From Verrucomicrobiaceae bacterium (GTDB lineage Bacteria; Verrucomicrobiota; Verrucomicrobiia; Verrucomicrobiales; Verrucomicrobiaceae): 64,000 nt of DNA. This document shows, piece by piece, positions 20,911 to 29,365 of the stretch. Made by a program: the position numbers and the translations under genes. The DNA is taken from assembly GCA_947458455.1 (NCBI GenBank), contig CANGYJ010000003.1, positions 124,001-188,000 of the forward strand, written 5' to 3'. Position 1 is the first letter of the stretch. Each line of letters begins with the position of its first letter. The notes beneath the pieces are model-generated. The model was not told the origin of the DNA, made no database searches, and saw only the letters and a list, made by a program, of their open reading frames with translations.

Positions 20911-22830
20911 ATGTTCACTCCTCCGCACGTCTTTGACCAGCCCGCCCCGGCCTTTGACATCCATCGCATCGAGACCCCGGCCTTCGTCGTCGATCTCGGA
21001 TTGCTGCGCCAAAATCTGGAACGTCTCGCCCTCGTGCAGCGTGAGGCCGGTGTGAAGGTGTTGCTGGCTTTGAAGGGCTTTTCGATGTTCAGCACCTTCG
21101 ATCTGGTGCGTCAGTATCTGAGCGGCTGCTGTGCCAGCGGACTGAATGAGGCGCTTCTGGCCTATCACGAATTTGGCAAAGAAGTCCACGTCTATGCCCC
21201 GGCCTTCAAGCCCAAGGAAATGGAGCAGATCCTGCCCATCGCCAACCACATCAGCTTCAACTCCCTGGCCCAGTGGCGCAAATTTCGCCCGATGATCGAG
21301 GCGGCCCGTGCTGCGGGCCAAAACGCTCCCAGCCCCGGCATCCGCGTGAACCCGGAACACAGCGAGGTGGAGGTCTCCCTCTACGATCCGTGCTCGCCCG
21401 GCTGCCGTCTCGGCATTCGGGCGGATTCTCTCGAAGGCGAGGACCTCAGCGGCATTGAGGGCCTGCACTTTCATGCGCTTTGCGAGCAGGGCAGCGATGT
21501 GCTCGAACGCGTCGTGGGTGCCGTGGAGAAGCGCTTTCCGAAGCTCATCGAGCAGGTGGATTGGATCAACATGGGCGGTGGCCATCACATCTCTCGCAGC
21601 GATTACGATCTCGAGCGCCTCATCCGCGTGCTGAAGACCTTCAAAGCCCGCTGGGGCAAAGAACACGTCTATCTCGAGCCCGGCGAGGCTGTCGGCCTCA
21701 ACACTGGTTACCTCATCGCCGAGGTGCAGGATATTGTCGGTGCCCGCAAAACCTCCGTTGCCATTTCCAAACCTCACAACACATTCGCCCATGCCCAAAG
21801 CCCAGCCCATTCTTTCACCTATCGCACGGCAGACGATGCAAGAAGCCTTGCGCAGGAACTCTATCGCCGTCTCCGAGATGACACTCGACGAAATGATCGA
21901 GCAGATGCGGCGGAACGGTTCTTTGCCGAGACCGAATCGATTCTTGCGTGGGCGGAAGATCGCAAATGCCTCATCTCGCCCACAGTCTTCGAAGTTGGGA
22001 CTGCTTTCTTCGGAGAACTCGAAGGTGGCAATGAACACGAAGTCCTAGTCGATTCGGAATCTGGCAGGGTTCTTAAACTCACACGTCCACCTAATTTTGG
22101 TGCCAGAGGTGAAGCGGTTGCCTACTTGGAGAACCTCCTTGCTTATGATGTGCTGCTTGGATTTGAATGGCATTTCGAGGGTATTGTGATTGAACCTGAC
22201 GGTATCGGCATCTTGACCAGCCAGCCCTATGTCAAAGGTGAAGAAGCTACGGATGAACAGATTGAAGCCTATTTCAGCGGCCTTGGGTTCACCAAAAAGC
22301 GCCAGCATACCTTCTTCCGTTCGATTGACGGCATTACACTGGTCGATGCTCGACCAGCGAATATTCTCCGCGATTCGGAAGGTTTCATGTTCCCCATCGA
22401 TATCCACATCTTGGGGGTAGGCGCCGAGGATATACTCACGCCAGAGTCCGAAGACGACCAGAGTGCCTGCGACATCCTTCCCACCGTCATCCTCGATCTC
22501 TCCGCCAGCGCCCACATGCCGGATACGATGGAGATGCCTTACCGTCCGCACATTTTCGGCGGCGGCATGCCGGGTGAATTCGCCCATGAATACAAAATGG
22601 GCGGCATGACCTGCCTCGCCGGCGATGTCCTGAGCGGCTTCTCCTTCCCTCAGCCGCTCGAAATCGGCCAGCGCCTCGTCTTCGCGGACATGGCGCATTA
22701 CACGATGGTCAAAACGACGACCTTCAACGGCGTGCATCATCCCGACATCGCCATCTACGATCCGGCGAAGAAGGAATACCGCGTCGTCCGCCGCTTCCGC
22801 TACGAGGATTTCCGCGACAAGCTCTCGTGA
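20911..22830 (+). CDS. nspC: Carboxynorspermidine decarboxylase with a large in-frame insertion
   Basis: The two ends are a normal NspC. Residues 1-282 carry the PLP-barrel with LLALKGFSMFSTF (PLP lysine) and LEPGEAVGLNTGYL. The last 115 residues carry LDLSASAHMPDTMEMPYRP and GGMTCLAGD with the catalytic cysteine. Joined directly they give about 396 residues, the family's usual size, reading DIVGARKTSVILD across the join. Between them sit 729 bases (21759-22487, 243 codons, no stop) encoding a kinase-like protein. The product makes norspermidine or related polyamines from the carboxylated precursor. Whether the 639-residue fusion folds is unknown. The insert appears lower in G+C than its surroundings. 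Confidence 0.85.
   Translation: MFTPPHVFDQPAPAFDIHRIETPAFVVDLGLLRQNLERLALVQREAGVKVLLALKGFSMFSTFDLVRQYLSGCCASGLNEALLAYHEFGKEVHVYAPAFKPKEMEQILPIANHISFNSLAQWRKFRPMIEAARAAGQNAPSPGIRVNPEHSEVEVSLYDPCSPGCRLGIRADSLEGEDLSGIEGLHFHALCEQGSDVLERVVGAVEKRFPKLIEQVDWINMGGGHHISRSDYDLERLIRVLKTFKARWGKEHVYLEPGEAVGLNTGYLIAEVQDIVGARKTSVAISKPHNTFAHAQSPAHSFTYRTADDARSLAQELYRRLRDDTRRNDRADAAERFFAETESILAWAEDRKCLISPTVFEVGTAFFGELEGGNEHEVLVDSESGRVLKLTRPPNFGARGEAVAYLENLLAYDVLLGFEWHFEGIVIEPDGIGILTSQPYVKGEEATDEQIEAYFSGLGFTKKRQHTFFRSIDGITLVDARPANILRDSEGFMFPIDIHILGVGAEDILTPESEDDQSACDILPTVILDLSASAHMPDTMEMPYRPHIFGGGMPGEFAHEYKMGGMTCLAGDVLSGFSFPQPLEIGQRLVFADMAHYTMVKTTTFNGVHHPDIAIYDPAKKEYRVVRRFRYEDFRDKLS
21759..22487 (+). mobile_element. 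729-bp insertion carrying a kinase-like cassette (copy B) inside nspC
   Basis: The boundaries were placed by restoring the NspC reading: CCGT occurs at both edges (21755-21758 and 22484-22487), as microhomology or a short target duplication. No terminal inverted repeats or transposase are visible. The frame shared with nspC encodes, from about 21860, AAERFFAETESILAWAEDRK, then GNEHEVLVDSESGRVLKL, LTSQPYVKGEEATDEQIEAY, and VDARPANILRDSEG followed by FPID. These correspond block by block to the kinase-like genes at 4621 and 53849. The kinase-like frame has no start codon of its own in the first third, so it is either read as part of NspC, re-initiated late, or reached by recoding from the small frame at 21791. 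Confidence 0.75.
21791..22048 (+). CDS. Small open frame at the 5' end of the nspC insertion
   Basis: This 85-codon frame lies one base out of phase with nspC and overlaps the beginning of the kinase-like frame. It starts with an ATG and its first 50 residues look protein-like (MPKAQPILSPIARQTMQEAL, ALRRNSIAVSEMTLDEMIEQ, MRRNGSLPRPNRFLRGRK). The remainder is low in character. It may be a small partner protein or the true N-terminal part of the kinase-like gene before a frameshift. No clear ribosome-binding site precedes it. Confidence 0.4.
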   Translation: MPKAQPILSPIARQTMQEALRRNSIAVSEMTLDEMIEQMRRNGSLPRPNRFLRGRKIANASSRPQSSKLGLLSSENSKVAMNTKS

Positions 22831-22899: not shown

Positions 22900-23592
22900 A
22901 TGGAAACTGCTGTGTCTCTGCGCCGTCTGGGAGCCTGCCTGCTGCTTGGCGCGGGCCTGGCTGCCACGGCGTGCGCGCAGGACGTGGCGGCGTTGAGGCT
23001 GAACTTTGAGCGGTCGTGGATCGCGGCCACGCTGGGACCGGTGAAGCGACAGATGTCGGAACTAGCGACGCTGGAAAAAAAACTCGCTGCGGCGAGCGAT
23101 TACGATGGAGCTGTTCGTGCCCGCGAGGAGAGGCTGAAGCTTCAACATGAGATCGAGCGGCTGGACAAGGAACTGCTGCTGCTGCAATCCCGCGAGCTTT
23201 CAATGAAATCCGCTCAACTCGGCGAGAAGATCACGCTCTCCATCGACTCCGCCGTGCTCAAGGACGTGAAACGCGAGGGCGGAGCCATCACGGGATGGTC
23301 ACGGCCCGGTGCCTCGGCGGAGTGGAAACTTCCCACGCTGCCTCCCGGTGGCTACGAGGTGGTGCTGCGCTATCGCTGCGGCCCGTTGGAAGGCGGCAGC
23401 CTCACGGCGAAGGAAGCTCGCTTCACGCTCACCGGCCCCATCGAGACCACGCTGAAGGGGCCGGAGGAACGTAATCTCGGCACGCTGAAGCTCAGCGAAG
23501 GTGCCACGACGCTCACGCTCACCGCCGCGACCCTTTTTAAAGACAATCTCATGCAACTCCTCGGCGTGACGCTCGTGCCAGCCTCCCGTTGA
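22900..23592 (+). CDS. Secreted coiled-coil plus beta-domain protein (first of three)
   Basis: The 230-residue protein has a signal peptide (METAVSLRRLGACLLLGAGL) ending near TACAQ. Residues about 45-105 are a coiled coil (MSELATLEKKLAAASDYDGA, then EERLKLQHEIERLDKELLLL). A C-terminal beta-domain (about 115-230) has the block GGYEVVLRYRCG. The same layout recurs in the next two genes. The beta-domain looks like a CBM6-like or ligand-binding sandwich. Function is unknown. It is the first gene of an operon running to about 27103. Confidence 0.6.
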   Translation: METAVSLRRLGACLLLGAGLAATACAQDVAALRLNFERSWIAATLGPVKRQMSELATLEKKLAAASDYDGAVRAREERLKLQHEIERLDKELLLLQSRELSMKSAQLGEKITLSIDSAVLKDVKREGGAITGWSRPGASAEWKLPTLPPGGYEVVLRYRCGPLEGGSLTAKEARFTLTGPIETTLKGPEERNLGTLKLSEGATTLTLTAATLFKDNLMQLLGVTLVPASR

Positions 23593-23603
23593 ACCTTCCT
23601 CTC

Positions 23604-25064
23604 ATGCGTTTGCTGCTCTCCAGTGTTCTTCTAGCTCTCCTTGCTGCCTCCAGCGTCGCGGCGCAGGAGCCTGCGGATTTGGCGGAGGCTCGCCAGGTTT
23701 TGCTGACCAAGGCGCTCGCGGATTCGCAGAAGGTCACGGAGCAGTATCTGCTGGCTCTTGCGGCTCGTGAGACGGCGCTGGCTGCGGCGGGGGATTATGA
23801 GCAGGCGAAGCAGTTTCAGCAGCGTCGCCAGCAGCTCGCGACCATTTACGAAGGAGCAGAAAGCACGAACGCGGTGCCACTTTCGCTCGTTGGCACGCGC
23901 ATGATGGGTTCCGTGCAGGCTTCGGGCGAATCGCTGGGGAATTTTCGGTCGAGTGGCAGCGGCGTGGAGTGGTCTCTCTTCCGGCTCACACCGGGTAAGT
24001 ATCGTTTCGAGTTTGAGGCAAATATGGCCGATGCGCCGGTGGCTTTTGCTTCCGCCAAATTGCAGCCGCAGGACAAGGCGGTCTTCGAGTTTGGCGAGGT
24101 GACAGGCCTCACGAGTGCGGCGAACAATCGTGCGAGCATCGAGATCACGAAGAGCACGGATGAGACCACCTTCGTGAAGGTGCAAAGCGCAGAGATGACC
24201 TTCACTCGCTCCCCCACCACACTGCGTCTCGTGGCCGCCAATGGCTATCCCGCGAACATCATCCGCCTCCGAGGTCTCAAACTCGTTCCGGTAACGGAAA
24301 CAGCTCCGCTGGCCCCAGTGGAGCCGGTGGATGCCAAAGCGACGCTGGAGGCCATTCGCTCGACTTTGGCCAGCGAACTCGCCATGGCGCAAAAAGCCGT
24401 CGTGGAGGCTTATCGCAATGATTTGGAGCGTGTGGATGCCAAAGATAAAAACGAGGTGAAGGCGGAGATGAATCGTCTGGAGCGTTTGGCAGAGAAAAAG
24501 AATGAGAAGCCGCGCTTCTCGCCGCCGCGTTCGCTGGCGGATACGGCAGGGAATCTCGATGGCTTCGATGAGGTCATTGAGGCCACATTGGCCGAGGGGC
24601 CTCCGGAAACCGGAGATCGCTTCAAGGTGCAGCACGAAGGCCGCGAGCTGAAGGTTCGCCTGCTCTGGGTGGTATGCGCTCCGGTGAAAAGCGAGGATAA
24701 GATCCTCAACACGATGGCGGCAAGGTTTCGCATCGACACGGAGGATGCGCTGGCGGTCGGGCGAGCCGCGCAAGAGTTCACCGCAGGTTATCTGCGTGGC
24801 AAGAAACTGCGCCTCGTGGCCCGGCCAATGCGTGAAGGCGCGGACGAACTGGAGGCGTTGGTATTTTTGCCGGATGTGGGCCTGTTTCAGAATGTGCTGC
24901 TCGATCAGGGGCTGGCGGCGTTGTATGTGCCGATAAACAAAAAAACCAGCGTGGGTGAGAACACCTTGTTGGAATCCCTCTTCGCCCGCGAGCAGGCGGC
25001 GAAAACGCGTGTGCCGCCTTCCGGGGCCTGGGCGTTGAGCCACGACAACAACTCCAAGAAATGA
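23604..25064 (+). CDS. Secreted protein with coiled coil, beta-domain and a nuclease-like C-terminal domain
   Basis: The ATG at 23604 gives 486 residues with a signal peptide (MRLLLSSVLLALLAASSVAA). After a coiled-coil part comes a beta-domain (GKYRFEFEANMA ... LRGLKLVPV) like the one in the gene before. A second helical part follows, then a C-terminal domain of about 165 residues resembling staphylococcal-nuclease folds: VRLLWVVCAP, ALAVGRAAQEFTAGYL, LLDQGLAALYVP, LLESLFAREQAAK. The usual arginine/aspartate catalytic set of active thermonucleases is not evident, so it may bind rather than cut. Its stop overlaps the next start (ATGA at 25061). Confidence 0.6.
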   Translation: MRLLLSSVLLALLAASSVAAQEPADLAEARQVLLTKALADSQKVTEQYLLALAARETALAAAGDYEQAKQFQQRRQQLATIYEGAESTNAVPLSLVGTRMMGSVQASGESLGNFRSSGSGVEWSLFRLTPGKYRFEFEANMADAPVAFASAKLQPQDKAVFEFGEVTGLTSAANNRASIEITKSTDETTFVKVQSAEMTFTRSPTTLRLVAANGYPANIIRLRGLKLVPVTETAPLAPVEPVDAKATLEAIRSTLASELAMAQKAVVEAYRNDLERVDAKDKNEVKAEMNRLERLAEKKNEKPRFSPPRSLADTAGNLDGFDEVIEATLAEGPPETGDRFKVQHEGRELKVRLLWVVCAPVKSEDKILNTMAARFRIDTEDALAVGRAAQEFTAGYLRGKKLRLVARPMREGADELEALVFLPDVGLFQNVLLDQGLAALYVPINKKTSVGENTLLESLFAREQAAKTRVPPSGAWALSHDNNSKK

Positions 25065-25768
25065 TCCGCTCCGCATTCATTCTGCTCATCGCCGTCACCG
25101 CCTTGCAGGCGCAGACGGTCGCACCTGCGACGCTGGAGCAGATGGAGGCTATTTATCAGCGGGAGCTGAGCACGCGGCACATTCCGCTCATCAGTCAGTA
25201 TTTGATCTTCCTGCAAAAAGGGGCCGTGAGTACCACGGCCAATGCTTCCTATCTCGCCGAGATCGCCCGTGTGCAGGAACTGCTGAAACGCGGCGGCGTG
25301 ATCGACCTCGCCGCCGCTCGTGCTCCACAACCTGCCATGCCGATGCCGATGCCCATGCCGGAAGCGCCAGCGAAGCCCAAAGAAGCCGAGCAGGCCGTCA
25401 TCGCCCTCTCGCCCGCGCTTTCAAAAGGCAGCGTGTCCGTCGAAGCGACCGCGAAGATCGGCGAGATGGAGTGGCGCGTGGAATTCATGGCTGCGGGTAG
25501 TTACGAGCTGCACCTCGAGTATGCGTGCCCAGTGCTTTCCGCACCGCTGAAGCTCATGGCAGACCTTGCAGGCCAGCAGATCGAGATGGAGCTGCCGGTG
25601 GAAAAGATCACGAAGGATGCCGAGACCTTCCGCGTGCTGCGCCTGGGCCGTGTGACGCTGCCGGCCGATCTTCGTGGCCGTGATCTGCGCATCACGGCGG
25701 GTGACAAATCGAGTTCCAGCCTCATCTTGCGCCATCTGTTGATCACCCCGGCCAAACCGGCCTCGTAG
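25061..25768 (+). CDS. Secreted beta-domain protein (third of three)
   Basis: The 235-residue protein starts inside the stop of the previous gene. It has a signal peptide (MIRSAFILLIAVTALQAQ), a helical part, a P/M-rich linker (PAMPMPMPMPEAP) and a beta-domain with GSYELHLEYACPV and LRHLLITP. These match in place and spacing GGYEVVLRYRCG ... LLGVTLVP and GKYRFEFEANMA ... LRGLKLVP of its two upstream neighbours. It is translationally coupled with them. Role unknown; possibly an envelope assembly of three related subunits. Confidence 0.6.
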   Translation: MIRSAFILLIAVTALQAQTVAPATLEQMEAIYQRELSTRHIPLISQYLIFLQKGAVSTTANASYLAEIARVQELLKRGGVIDLAAARAPQPAMPMPMPMPEAPAKPKEAEQAVIALSPALSKGSVSVEATAKIGEMEWRVEFMAAGSYELHLEYACPVLSAPLKLMADLAGQQIEMELPVEKITKDAETFRVLRLGRVTLPADLRGRDLRITAGDKSSSSLILRHLLITPAKPAS

Positions 25769-25780
25769 CCTTCCTCTTGC

Positions 25781-27103
25781 ATGCATCGCCTCACGCTTTC
25801 ACTTTTTGCCCTGCTGTCCCTTGCGGCCTTGCCCGCATGCAAGCGCATCCAGGACAAGCTGGAGCGTCTCGCGGAAAAAAGCGGTGCGCTGCCTCCCAAA
25901 CCCGCGCCGAAGCCCGCCGAGCCGCAGCTCACACCCGAGCAGGAGCTCATCGAAAAGAAGCTGAAGGACTCCGCCATGCTCGAAGCGGCCGCCCCGGAGC
26001 CGGTGATCCCCGCCGCTCCCGCCTTTGAGCTGAACAAATCCGCCAACGTGGCCGTCCTCGGCTACCACGACGTGCGTGACCGTGGCGGCAGCCCGATGCT
26101 CATCGCGGGATCAAAGTTCCGCGAGCAGATGCAGGTCATCAAAGACTCGCAGATCCCCGTCGTGTCGCTCGCCGATGTGATGGCCTGGAAGAAGGGCGAA
26201 AAGAACATCCCGCAAGAGTCCATCGTCATCACCTTCGACGACGGCTGGGAAGGCGTTTACACCTATGCCTATCCCGTGCTGAAGGAGTTTGGCTTCCCAT
26301 TCACCGTCTATCTTTACAAGAAGTATGTGAACATCGGTGGTCGCTCGATGAACTGGGACCAAATCAAGGAGATGATGCAGCACGGCTGCGAGATCGGCAG
26401 CCACAGCGTCTCCCACGAGAGCCTCAAAAAGAAGCCGAAGGGGAAGATGTCCGATGCGGACTTTCAGCAGTGGGTTCTCTCCGAGTTGAAGGATTCTCGT
26501 GAGTTCCTCGAGCAGAACCTCAAAGTGAAGATCCCCTCCTTTGCCTATCCATACGGCATCTTTGACGATGCGATCATGGAGACCGGTCTTCAAATCGGTT
26601 ACGAAAGCCTCGTCACGGTGAACGGTCAGAAGGTCGGCTGGGAGACGCCGAATGGAAAACTCGGCCGCTACATCATCCACGGGGATAGCGATACGAACTT
26701 CAAGCTCGCCACCAGCTTCCGTGGGCGTGGTGATGTCGCCTCAAACAAATTCCTCCTCGCCGATGCAAAGGACGAGAGCGGGAAATTGATCGTCGAGCTC
26801 ACCCCGAAGCCTGATGCCACCATCACGGATCGCCGCCCGATGATCGAGGCTAGCCTCGCCAACGTCGGTGCCGTGCTCCCCGAGAGCGTGAAGCTCCGCA
26901 TCGGCGGCCTCGGCACCGTGCCCGCCCTTTATGACGAGGCCTCGAAAAGCGTGCGCTACCAGTTTCCTTACCGCATTCGCCGCGAGGAAGTTGTGGCCTC
27001 ATTGACCTTCCAACGCCAAGACGCCACGCAAGCCGAGATCATCAACTGGCGTTTCAAAGTCGATCTCGCCGCCTCCTACACGCCCGTGTCGGCGGAAAAG
27101 TGA
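25781..27103 (+). CDS. Polysaccharide deacetylase lipoprotein (NodB domain)
   Basis: The 440-residue protein has a lipobox (LAALPAC, Cys 20), so it is probably a lipoprotein. After a charged/P-rich stretch, the NodB domain (about 88-330) carries AVLGYHDVRD, ITFDDGWEGVYTYAYPVL (metal-binding aspartate pair) and GSHSVSHESL (zinc histidines), like PgaB-type deacetylases. A C-terminal beta part follows. It removes N-acetyl or O-acetyl groups from a cell-surface glycan. It lies 12 bases after the gene at 25061, so it closes the operon that starts at 22900. Confidence 0.85.
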   Translation: MHRLTLSLFALLSLAALPACKRIQDKLERLAEKSGALPPKPAPKPAEPQLTPEQELIEKKLKDSAMLEAAAPEPVIPAAPAFELNKSANVAVLGYHDVRDRGGSPMLIAGSKFREQMQVIKDSQIPVVSLADVMAWKKGEKNIPQESIVITFDDGWEGVYTYAYPVLKEFGFPFTVYLYKKYVNIGGRSMNWDQIKEMMQHGCEIGSHSVSHESLKKKPKGKMSDADFQQWVLSELKDSREFLEQNLKVKIPSFAYPYGIFDDAIMETGLQIGYESLVTVNGQKVGWETPNGKLGRYIIHGDSDTNFKLATSFRGRGDVASNKFLLADAKDESGKLIVELTPKPDATITDRRPMIEASLANVGAVLPESVKLRIGGLGTVPALYDEASKSVRYQFPYRIRREEVVASLTFQRQDATQAEIINWRFKVDLAASYTPVSAEK

Positions 27104-27116
27104 GGAGTTAAAATCC

Positions 27117-28154
27117 TCACTTCGTCACATCATACCCGATCTTGTCATCGAGCCAGGCGCGGAGCTTGTCGAGGCCTTGGCCGGTCTGGGCTGAGATGGG
27201 ATGGATTTTGACGCGTTTGAAGCGCTCTTTGAGATTGGCGAGATGCGGTTCGGCTTCGAGGAGATCGCATTTGTTGGCAAGGATGCACCAGGGGCGCTTC
27301 GAGAGTTCCTTCGAGTAGAGCGATACCTCGGCGCGGACGGTTTCTAGATCGGCCACGGGATCGCGGCCCTCAGTGCCAGCGGTATCGACGACGAAAAGCA
27401 GCACGCGGCAGCGCATGATATGGCGCAGGAAATCATGGCCGAGGCCGATGTTTTGATGCGCCCCTTCAATAAGCCCCGGAATGTCGGCCAGCGTGCCACG
27501 GCGGAAGGGGGCAAACTCAATGACCCCCACCATCGGCTGGAGCGTGGTGAAGGGGTAGTTCGCGATCTTCGGCTTCGCGGCGCTCAGCTTGGAGAGCAGC
27601 GTGGATTTGCCCGCGTTCGGCGCCCCCACGAGGCCTGCCTCGGCGATGCTGCGCAGCTCAAAGTGGAAGCTGCCTTCATCACCTGGCGTGCCAGGGGTGA
27701 ATTCACGCGGTGCCTGGTGTGTGCTCGTTTTGAAATGCATGTTTCCTTTGCCGCCCTTGCCGCCTTTGCAGAGCACAAAATGCGATCCCACCTCGACGAG
27801 ATCCGCCACGGGCTCAAAGCGGAGGATCGGCTCGCCGGTTTCGGCATCCTCTTCTTCAATGATGCGGCTCACGACGGTGCCCGGCGGCACTTTGTAGACT
27901 TTATCGACGGCGCTGCGCCCGGTGCATTGCCTGCCCAGGCCGCCCTGGCCATCCTCAGCGATGAGCTTGCCGTTGAAGACATAATTTCGCAGGCTGTCCG
28001 TGCTGGGATCGACTTCGAGGATGACGCTGCCACCACGGCCACCATCGCCTCCGTCGGGACCGCCCTTGGGACGGAACTTGCCACGGTGAAAATGCACGGA
28101 CCCATCGCCACCTTTACCGGCGCGGGCATAAACTTTGATCTGATCGACAAACAT
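27117..28154 (-). CDS. obg: GTPase Obg
   Basis: From the ATG at 28154 the protein has 345 residues: a glycine-rich Obg fold (1-158, GKGGDGSVHFHRGKFRPKGG) and a G domain with GAPNAGKST (G1, 177-185), DIPGLIEGAH (G3) and NKCD (G4). It works in large-subunit ribosome maturation and stress control in the cytoplasm. The usual neighbours rplU/rpmA are absent. It is convergent with the operon ending at 27103 and divergent from gap. Confidence 0.96.
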   Translation of the reverse strand: MFVDQIKVYARAGKGGDGSVHFHRGKFRPKGGPDGGDGGRGGSVILEVDPSTDSLRNYVFNGKLIAEDGQGGLGRQCTGRSAVDKVYKVPPGTVVSRIIEEEDAETGEPILRFEPVADLVEVGSHFVLCKGGKGGKGNMHFKTSTHQAPREFTPGTPGDEGSFHFELRSIAEAGLVGAPNAGKSTLLSKLSAAKPKIANYPFTTLQPMVGVIEFAPFRRGTLADIPGLIEGAHQNIGLGHDFLRHIMRCRVLLFVVDTAGTEGRDPVADLETVRAEVSLYSKELSKRPWCILANKCDLLEAEPHLANLKERFKRVKIHPISAQTGQGLDKLRAWLDDKIGYDVTK

Positions 28155-28273
28155 GAGTTGGGCGAAGACGTAGCGCCTAAGCGGAGCGGGGCAATGGCGA
28201 AAGTCCGGTGATTGGCAGACGGTGTGCTGCGGCTGCAAGCCTCCACGGTTGACATGACCCCCTGCCGGGCTAG

Positions 28274-29365
<1,092 letters not shown>

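Follow-up and report, generated by a model that had tools for sequence, protein, structure and literature searches.

Three adjacent Verrucomicrobiaceae genes with related hairpins and beta-domains, and a nuclease fold lacking catalytic residues

Genes and shared domains

We analysed 64,000 nucleotides of DNA from Verrucomicrobiaceae bacterium (assembly GCA_947458455.1, contig CANGYJ010000003.1, positions 124,001 to 188,000 of the forward strand); this whole stretch is called the window. Our subject is a set of three consecutive genes, named A, B and C, and the polysaccharide deacetylase gene, D, that follows them. A preliminary description, made from the sequence, had placed three open reading frames (ORFs) here and noted that they nearly touch or overlap. 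This is correct: A and B are separated by 11 bases, B and C overlap by four (ATGA, 25061-25064), and 12 bases lie between C and D. Note that we place the start of B at the ATG at 23604; an alternative in-frame TTG, at 23589, would make B overlap A. The similar blocks that had drawn attention to these proteins lie at residues 150-161 and 220-227 of A, 131-142 and 222-229 of B, and 146-158 and 223-230 of C. Read by eye, the N-termini of A, B and C resemble signal peptides and D has a lipobox-like start. A, B and C all stay below the cut-offs of the Pfam and NCBIfam models, the best E-values being 0.041 and 0.098, respectively. Scans for promoters and terminators gave signal no higher than shuffles.

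The preliminary description had proposed that A, B and C share one beta-domain. Comparisons of single sequences are weak: BLASTP hits are marginal for A and B (E 0.001) and for A and C (E 6e-4, over 20 residues), and the best between B and C has an E-value of 0.22. We therefore relied on profiles, built from orthologue alignments with 26 rows for A (alignment A6), 32 for B (A4) and 31 for C (A5). Locus L126 was excluded from A4 and A5, because its B has an in-frame stop and its C is truncated. Further alignments, A1-A3 (20, 15 and 16 rows), represent a subset of loci. The beta-domain, hairpin and nuclease parts were excised from the alignments, rows covering less than 60% of a domain were dropped, and the profiles were compared using hhalign. 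The null was 20 column-shuffled controls per comparison. For the A and B beta-domains, hhalign gave a probability of 96.7% and a score of 61.1 (shuffled maximum 20.5). The A and C domains scored 46.9 (94.2%; shuffled maximum 15.7), in an alignment spanning 46 columns only. The weakest of the three links is between B and C, with a score of 33.0 (63.6%; shuffled maximum 20.6). Against a profile of DUF5077 (PF16871), made from 13 of 15 loci (L206 and L207 were excluded), probabilities were 91.6% for A, 75.6% for B and 92.2% for C. Every beta-domain comparison exceeded its shuffled maximum (14.0-20.6); beta-domains compared with the nuclease part of B scored 10.5-12.6. Hence, the likeness goes beyond chance, and a beta-domain common to all three proteins is upheld by the profile scores.

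Structure prediction, suggested in the preliminary description as a check, agrees in part. The AlphaFold2 model of C has a mean predicted local distance difference test score (pLDDT) of 74.5, rising to about 90 in the beta-domain. In a VIA structure search, this model matched 5fui (CBM6, a carbohydrate-binding module; Z 11.7) and 2w47 (CBM35; Z 11.4). The top row was 6ueh, from the N-terminal region of a GH26 mannanase (Z 11.8, root-mean-square deviation (rmsd) 2.5, 114 residues). Insecticidal Cry proteins also appear, at Z 10.9 or less; going by the model, these matches reflect the common beta-sandwich fold and have no bearing on toxicity. B is modelled with strands in its beta-domain, and VIA rows for B cover its nuclease part only. 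Hence, the separate fold of the B beta-domain, like that of A, rests on homology.

Sequence searches of the PDB with the profiles A4-A6 gave marginal matches. The top match for both the A and C profiles was 2vzp, the CBM35 of exo-chitosanase CsxA (E 0.31 for A, 0.0078 for C). The DUF5077 model of Pfam matched none of the window's A, B and C at E <=10, and no member of A4-A6 at E <=1; Golvesin_C matched two C members (best E 0.062). In the window's own genome, the A6 profile recovered A alone at E <=0.1, and a single-sequence search with A found one DUF5077 protein (E 2.4e-4). Overall, the beta-domain is DUF5077/CBM35-like and so is not a new fold. It is linked to DUF5077 by profile similarity in all three proteins and, in C, to CBM6 and CBM35 modules by the predicted fold. 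What differs is the setting: helical hairpins and a set of three genes instead of a carbohydrate enzyme.

The hairpins are of two types, which we call hp1 and hp2. The A hairpin aligns with the first hairpin of B (94.5%, score 40.6, shuffled maximum 13.8), and the second hairpin of B aligns with that of C (94.9%, score 39.7, shuffled maximum 11.5). The other four pairings score 12.2-14.5, inside the shuffled range. The architectures are thus hp1-beta for A, hp1-beta-hp2-nuclease for B and hp2-beta for C. Since hp1 is common to A and B, and hp2 to B and C, B resembles a bridge, and we infer that it may connect the other two. No PDB sequence matched B using phmmer; the marginal matches of the B profile were led by a coiled-coil chimera (E 0.0021), aligned to the second hairpin.

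The nuclease-fold domain of B

The C-terminal part of B had been described as resembling staphylococcal nuclease (SNase), and its model bears this out. Residues 317-477 superpose on staphylococcal nuclease 1ihz (VIA Z 15.4, rmsd 2.5, 131 residues), with the oligonucleotide/oligosaccharide-binding (OB) fold of SNase; the best Foldseek E-value for this fold is 7.1e-7. The Pfam SNase model, PF00565, gave no row for the window's B at E <=10. Among the 32 B members, 16 match at E <=1 (best 6.9e-4).

The preliminary description asked whether catalytic residues are missing from this domain. We take the SNase catalytic set to be Arg35, Glu43 and Arg87, with Asp21 and Asp40 binding calcium. These columns were placed by sequence alignment to 21 stand-alone homologues, and residues were counted in 31 B proteins (L132, truncated before Arg87, was excluded). 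Glu43 is kept in none, being replaced by proline in 30 and serine in one. Arg87 is kept in one of the 31 (L142, beside a gap) and Asp40 in 13. Arg35 is kept in 30, and the Asp21 position is acidic throughout (Asp in 18, Glu in 13). Neither the catalytic nor the calcium-binding set is complete across the B proteins. Seven further B rows (one of them, L101, duplicating L137) have Glu43 in 0/7 and Arg87 in 1/7 (L099). The stand-alone homologues, in contrast, keep Glu43 in 20, Arg87 in 19, Asp40 in 20, Arg35 in 20 and Asp21 in 21 of 21. Such stand-alone verrucomicrobial proteins (for example L110, which is above the Pfam SNase cut-off, and one in G000:C7) are homologues of the B domain, but lie elsewhere in genomes, outside the trio. 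Hence, relative to the SNase family, B retains the fold, Arg35 and the acidic Asp21 position, but has no equivalents of Glu43 and Arg87. Judged by its sequence, the domain is dead as an SNase.

Despite these losses, the domain is constrained. Against three close relatives, its ratio of nonsynonymous to synonymous divergence (dN/dS) is 0.12, 0.08 and 0.06, while values for whole B are 0.13, 0.14 and 0.13. The domain is at, below or near the whole-B values, yet not below every other part of B. Note that dS is 0.87, 1.16 and 2.33, so the last ratios are rough. We conclude that the domain is under purifying selection and not decaying.

Separately, locus L190 (G161:C5:41000-49000), in another family of the phylum, has an open frame of 1218 residues that includes an SNase domain with motifs of the catalytic type. 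Read by eye, a long stretch resembling tetratricopeptide repeats (TPR) follows.

Table 1. Positions of the genes and domains in the window.
Feature	Position	Strand	Basis or content
Gene A	22900..23592	+	230 aa: signal-peptide-like start, hp1, beta-domain
A residues 27-104, helical hairpin type 1 (hp1)	22978..23211	+	hhalign to B hp1; putative helices
A residues 105-230, beta-domain (DUF5077/CBM35-like)	23212..23589	+	hhalign to B, C and DUF5077
Gene B	23604..25064	+	486 aa from ATG: signal-peptide-like start, hp1, beta, hp2, pseudo-SNase
B residues 22-87, hp1	23667..23864	+	hhalign; model helices 24-61, 65-81
B residues 88-232, beta-domain	23865..24299	+	hhalign; strands in model, ten-residue block pLDDT 75-95
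B residues 240-302, helical hairpin type 2 (hp2)	24321..24509	+	hhalign; model helices 244-276, 279-300
B residues 316-480, SNase-fold domain without Glu43/Arg87 equivalents	24549..25043	+	VIA to 1ihz; residue counts
Former catalytic segment RLLWVVCAP (Arg35 kept, Asp40 to Val, Glu43 to Pro)	24657..24683	+	Alignment to stand-alone homologues
Gene C	25061..25768	+	235 aa: signal-peptide-like start, hp2, low-confidence linker, beta-domain
C residues 18-85, hp2	25112..25315	+	hhalign; model helices 25-57, 61-76
C residues 110-235, CBM6/CBM35-like beta-domain	25388..25765	+	pLDDT about 90; VIA Z 11.7/11.4
Gene D	25781..27103	+	440 aa polysaccharide deacetylase, lipobox-like start; sub-lineage neighbour outside core unit

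Gene order, relatives and neighbouring genes

We surveyed 47 genomes of the genus, including that of the window, by single-sequence searches (labels of loci, L, and genomes, G, are given where individual cases are mentioned). A was found in 44, B in 45 and C in 46. B and C are adjacent in 44/44 genomes with both. A is present in 42 of the 45 genomes with B, and adjacent to it in 32/42. In Brevifollis gellanilyticus (L137), a different ORF lies directly upstream of B, so the separation of A from B looks real there. In a survey of contigs, B is present at all 32 loci, A at 25 and C at 31 (>100 bits), with Prosthecobacter and Brevifollis gellanilyticus among the sources. Note that the two surveys share contigs (for example, L101 and L137 derive from one contig, as do L104 and L142) and hence are not independent. 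The trio also occurs in three more genera of the family, g15, g16 and g17 (L185-L187). The conserved gene order that the preliminary description suggested looking for is thus found.

Two loci deserve separate mention. In L126, the in-frame stop codon in the B orthologue marks either a broken gene or an assembly error. L118, deposited as Akkermansia muciniphila, has an A-B-C-D locus that groups with Prosthecobacter-type loci (B at 47% identity, D at 754 bits), and is probably a mislabelled metagenome bin.

Further afield, we searched 288 genomes of the phylum with B (E <=1e-10). Full-length matches came from seven genomes of family f1 among the matches listed; in the other 25 matching genomes, the match is confined to B from position 267 onwards, covering the SNase part and at most some hairpin. 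Sister families differ in their versions of the trio. In family f4, which belongs to the same order of bacteria, three consecutive hairpin and beta-domain genes stand in the same sequence (L092, L093, L095 and L096; only A and the B relative, B', are seen in L097). Here, B' carries a pair of beta-domains and gives no SNase match in 5/5. Going by these architectures, the SNase domain of B occupies the place of the second beta-domain in B'. Family f3 (L094) has an A relative and, after it, a shorter B relative, which contains a single beta-domain and gives no SNase match. The B of family f5 (L099) does include the SNase part, and the gene after it is C-like. Nine genomes of family f2 (2.3-3.2 Mb) contain none of A, B or C at E <=0.001.

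The preliminary description had also placed a deacetylase after the trio. This is true of the window, but D falls outside the conserved unit. D matches PF01522 (Polysacc_deac_1) above cut-off (E 2.4e-25, 89.3 bits) and so has the deacetylase domain of PgaB. Its match to the PgaB model TIGR03938 is partial, over residues 90-306, and at 100.2 bits falls short of the cut-off of 321.9. D follows C at 18/32 loci and was not found at the other 14; three of these are too short to tell, and the remaining 11 extend 2 kb or more beyond C. These 11 rule out D as a core part of the unit family-wide. D is a lineage-specific neighbour, and its resemblance to the PgaB/IcaB polysaccharide N-deacetylases concerns a gene outside the conserved trio.

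We compared the ORFs lying between 10 and 36 kb in the window against 47 loci, many of which have short flanks. Those recurring at three or more loci are A-D, ORFs antisense to or overlapping A-D, and one further gene (27117-28313, minus strand, with an antisense ORF). This gene recurs at 3 of the 47 loci, and was rejected as an additional conserved member. Flanking genes otherwise vary among the loci.

Upstream, gene 20911-22830 resembles a pyridoxal phosphate (PLP) decarboxylase, presumably of NspC type. It has Pfam Orn_DAP_Arg_deC at the C-terminus and an in-frame insert of about 243 residues, which contains a Kinase-PolyVal domain (PF18762, E 6.9e-11, residues 340-498). Full-length matches occur in G029 and G043. 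Between the window and G029 (L210), identity is 97% and 94% in the host parts but only 48-56% in the insert. In G014 and G016, matches are limited to the two host parts, and in G016 nothing interrupts the gene. Further relatives of the insert are scattered in the same genomes, in ORFs of 226-357 aa; at L217 (G016:C1:632500-635500), a Kinase-PolyVal-like stretch appears, by eye, fused to the C-terminus of an apparent ABC transporter ATP-binding protein. The insert could be a mobile or swapped gene.

Possible roles of the trio

To our knowledge, as to that of the preliminary description's author, no described system has this gene set. Literature on DUF5077, on Prosthecobacter (secreted nuclease, carbohydrate-binding and secretome) and on catalytic loss in SNases contained no description of the trio in the portions available, and the literature searched held nothing on DUF5077 together with Verrucomicrobia. 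For DUF5077 as such, the match was a paper on centipede venom. In freshwater Verrucomicrobia, carbohydrate-binding modules are reported near sulfatase genes and inside cytochrome-domain genes, and the accessible part of that source does not mention the present gene set (PMC5615132). PADLOC gave no grounds for an anti-phage defence system, with 0 families at E <=0.1 for A-D.

The domain content, the homology of hairpins and beta-domains, the gene order, the loss of catalytic residues and the purifying selection are all documented above. As an explanation, we favour a single heteromeric glycan-binding assembly made of A, B and C, as exported, non-enzymatic proteins, with B as the bridge. We give this a probability of roughly 0.4. 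The signal-like N-termini suggest that the three would be periplasmic or extracellular. Each would carry a CBM35/DUF5077-like beta-sandwich on a helical hairpin and, from fold and family, the beta-domains may bind sugar. A would dock at one end of B, via the hp1 kind of hairpin, and C at the other, via hp2. The nuclease-fold domain, with catalysis lost, would then be an extra, non-sugar binding surface, for nucleic acid, protein or another polymer.

Several observations weigh against the glycan-binding assembly. The beta-domain may not bind sugar. Big_3_5, an immunoglobulin (Ig)-like Pfam model, matches 3/31 C members (best E 8.8e-6) and 5/26 A members (best 0.047); CBM_35_2 matches two C members (best E 0.15), more weakly than Big_3_5 does there. 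The B model has a predicted template modelling score (pTM) of 0.40, so its domain arrangement is unreliable. The second hairpin of B' in family f4, matched in 3/5 (L092, L093 and L097), is matched by hp1 rather than hp2, so a bridge of this topology may be specific to the present lineage. A is on a separate contig from B in 10/42 genomes of the genus, which are draft assemblies. Finally, a profile search found a B relative in one of the two genomes that had given no single-sequence match (L106, G046:C71). This natural loss variant retains both hairpin types, hp1 and hp2, and the SNase part, whereas a beta-domain is not detectable; a C relative follows it.

Logically, the same proteins could form a structural envelope complex, a scaffold or surface part in which beta-domains contact other proteins and bind no sugar. 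The weak Ig-like matches in some A and C members fit this, as does the fact that no catalytic domain is recognised in the trio besides the dead SNase. However, the domain resembles DUF5077 and CBM35 in sequence and fold, and a relative (L098) has a similar domain as the C-terminal part of a sulfatase. We consider the envelope complex rather unlikely. A role for the trio, with D, in handling deacetylated exopolysaccharide, where a PgaB/IcaB-like D deacetylates and A, B and C bind, is a good deal less probable. While D does follow C at 18/32 loci, at a distance of 12 bases in the window, and carries a PgaB-like domain, it is missing from 11 loci with sufficient downstream sequence. Furthermore, no other exopolysaccharide gene was noticed at eight loci, although this came from skimming ORF starts by eye and is weak evidence.

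Another rival holds that B, its active site rearranged, still works as a nuclease or takes an active part in the turnover of nucleic acids. Tudor-SN (SND1) provides a parallel by description. Unlike B, it is eukaryotic and intracellular and has SN domains in tandem. As in B, nuclease-fold domains have lost most catalytic residues, and some degenerate SN domains are nonetheless active, according to the part of the source available (PMC5900569). The near-invariant Arg35 and acidic Asp21 position of B also allow for activity. Conversely, the Glu43 equivalent is lost in 31/31 and Arg87 in 30/31, with Asp40 kept in only 13, which makes an active B improbable, and marginally more so than the exopolysaccharide role. 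Least credible is that the trio consists of unrelated neighbours, similar by chance or composition. Weak single-sequence scores would be expected in that case, but the shuffled-profile controls, and an order kept within and across genera, contradict it. We regard chance as highly implausible.

Returning to the glycan-binding assembly, a bolder version is that A, B and C form an undescribed, Verrucomicrobiaceae-type surface machine. Here, a three-subunit glycan binder would use the captured, dead nuclease of B, which takes the place of a sister family's second sugar-binding-like module, to hold a second polymer, such as extracellular DNA, and cross-link it to polysaccharide. This is unlikely to hold as it stands, though less so than a role with D or an active B. 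In any case, the trio is kept across related genera, even though no Pfam or NCBIfam model recognises its proteins at cut-off. The layout predicts that A pairs with B via hp1, and B with C via hp2. A dead nuclease under purifying selection, in the place where a sister family has a beta-domain, would, if true, clearly illustrate the reuse of an enzyme fold as an extracellular binding or structural part.

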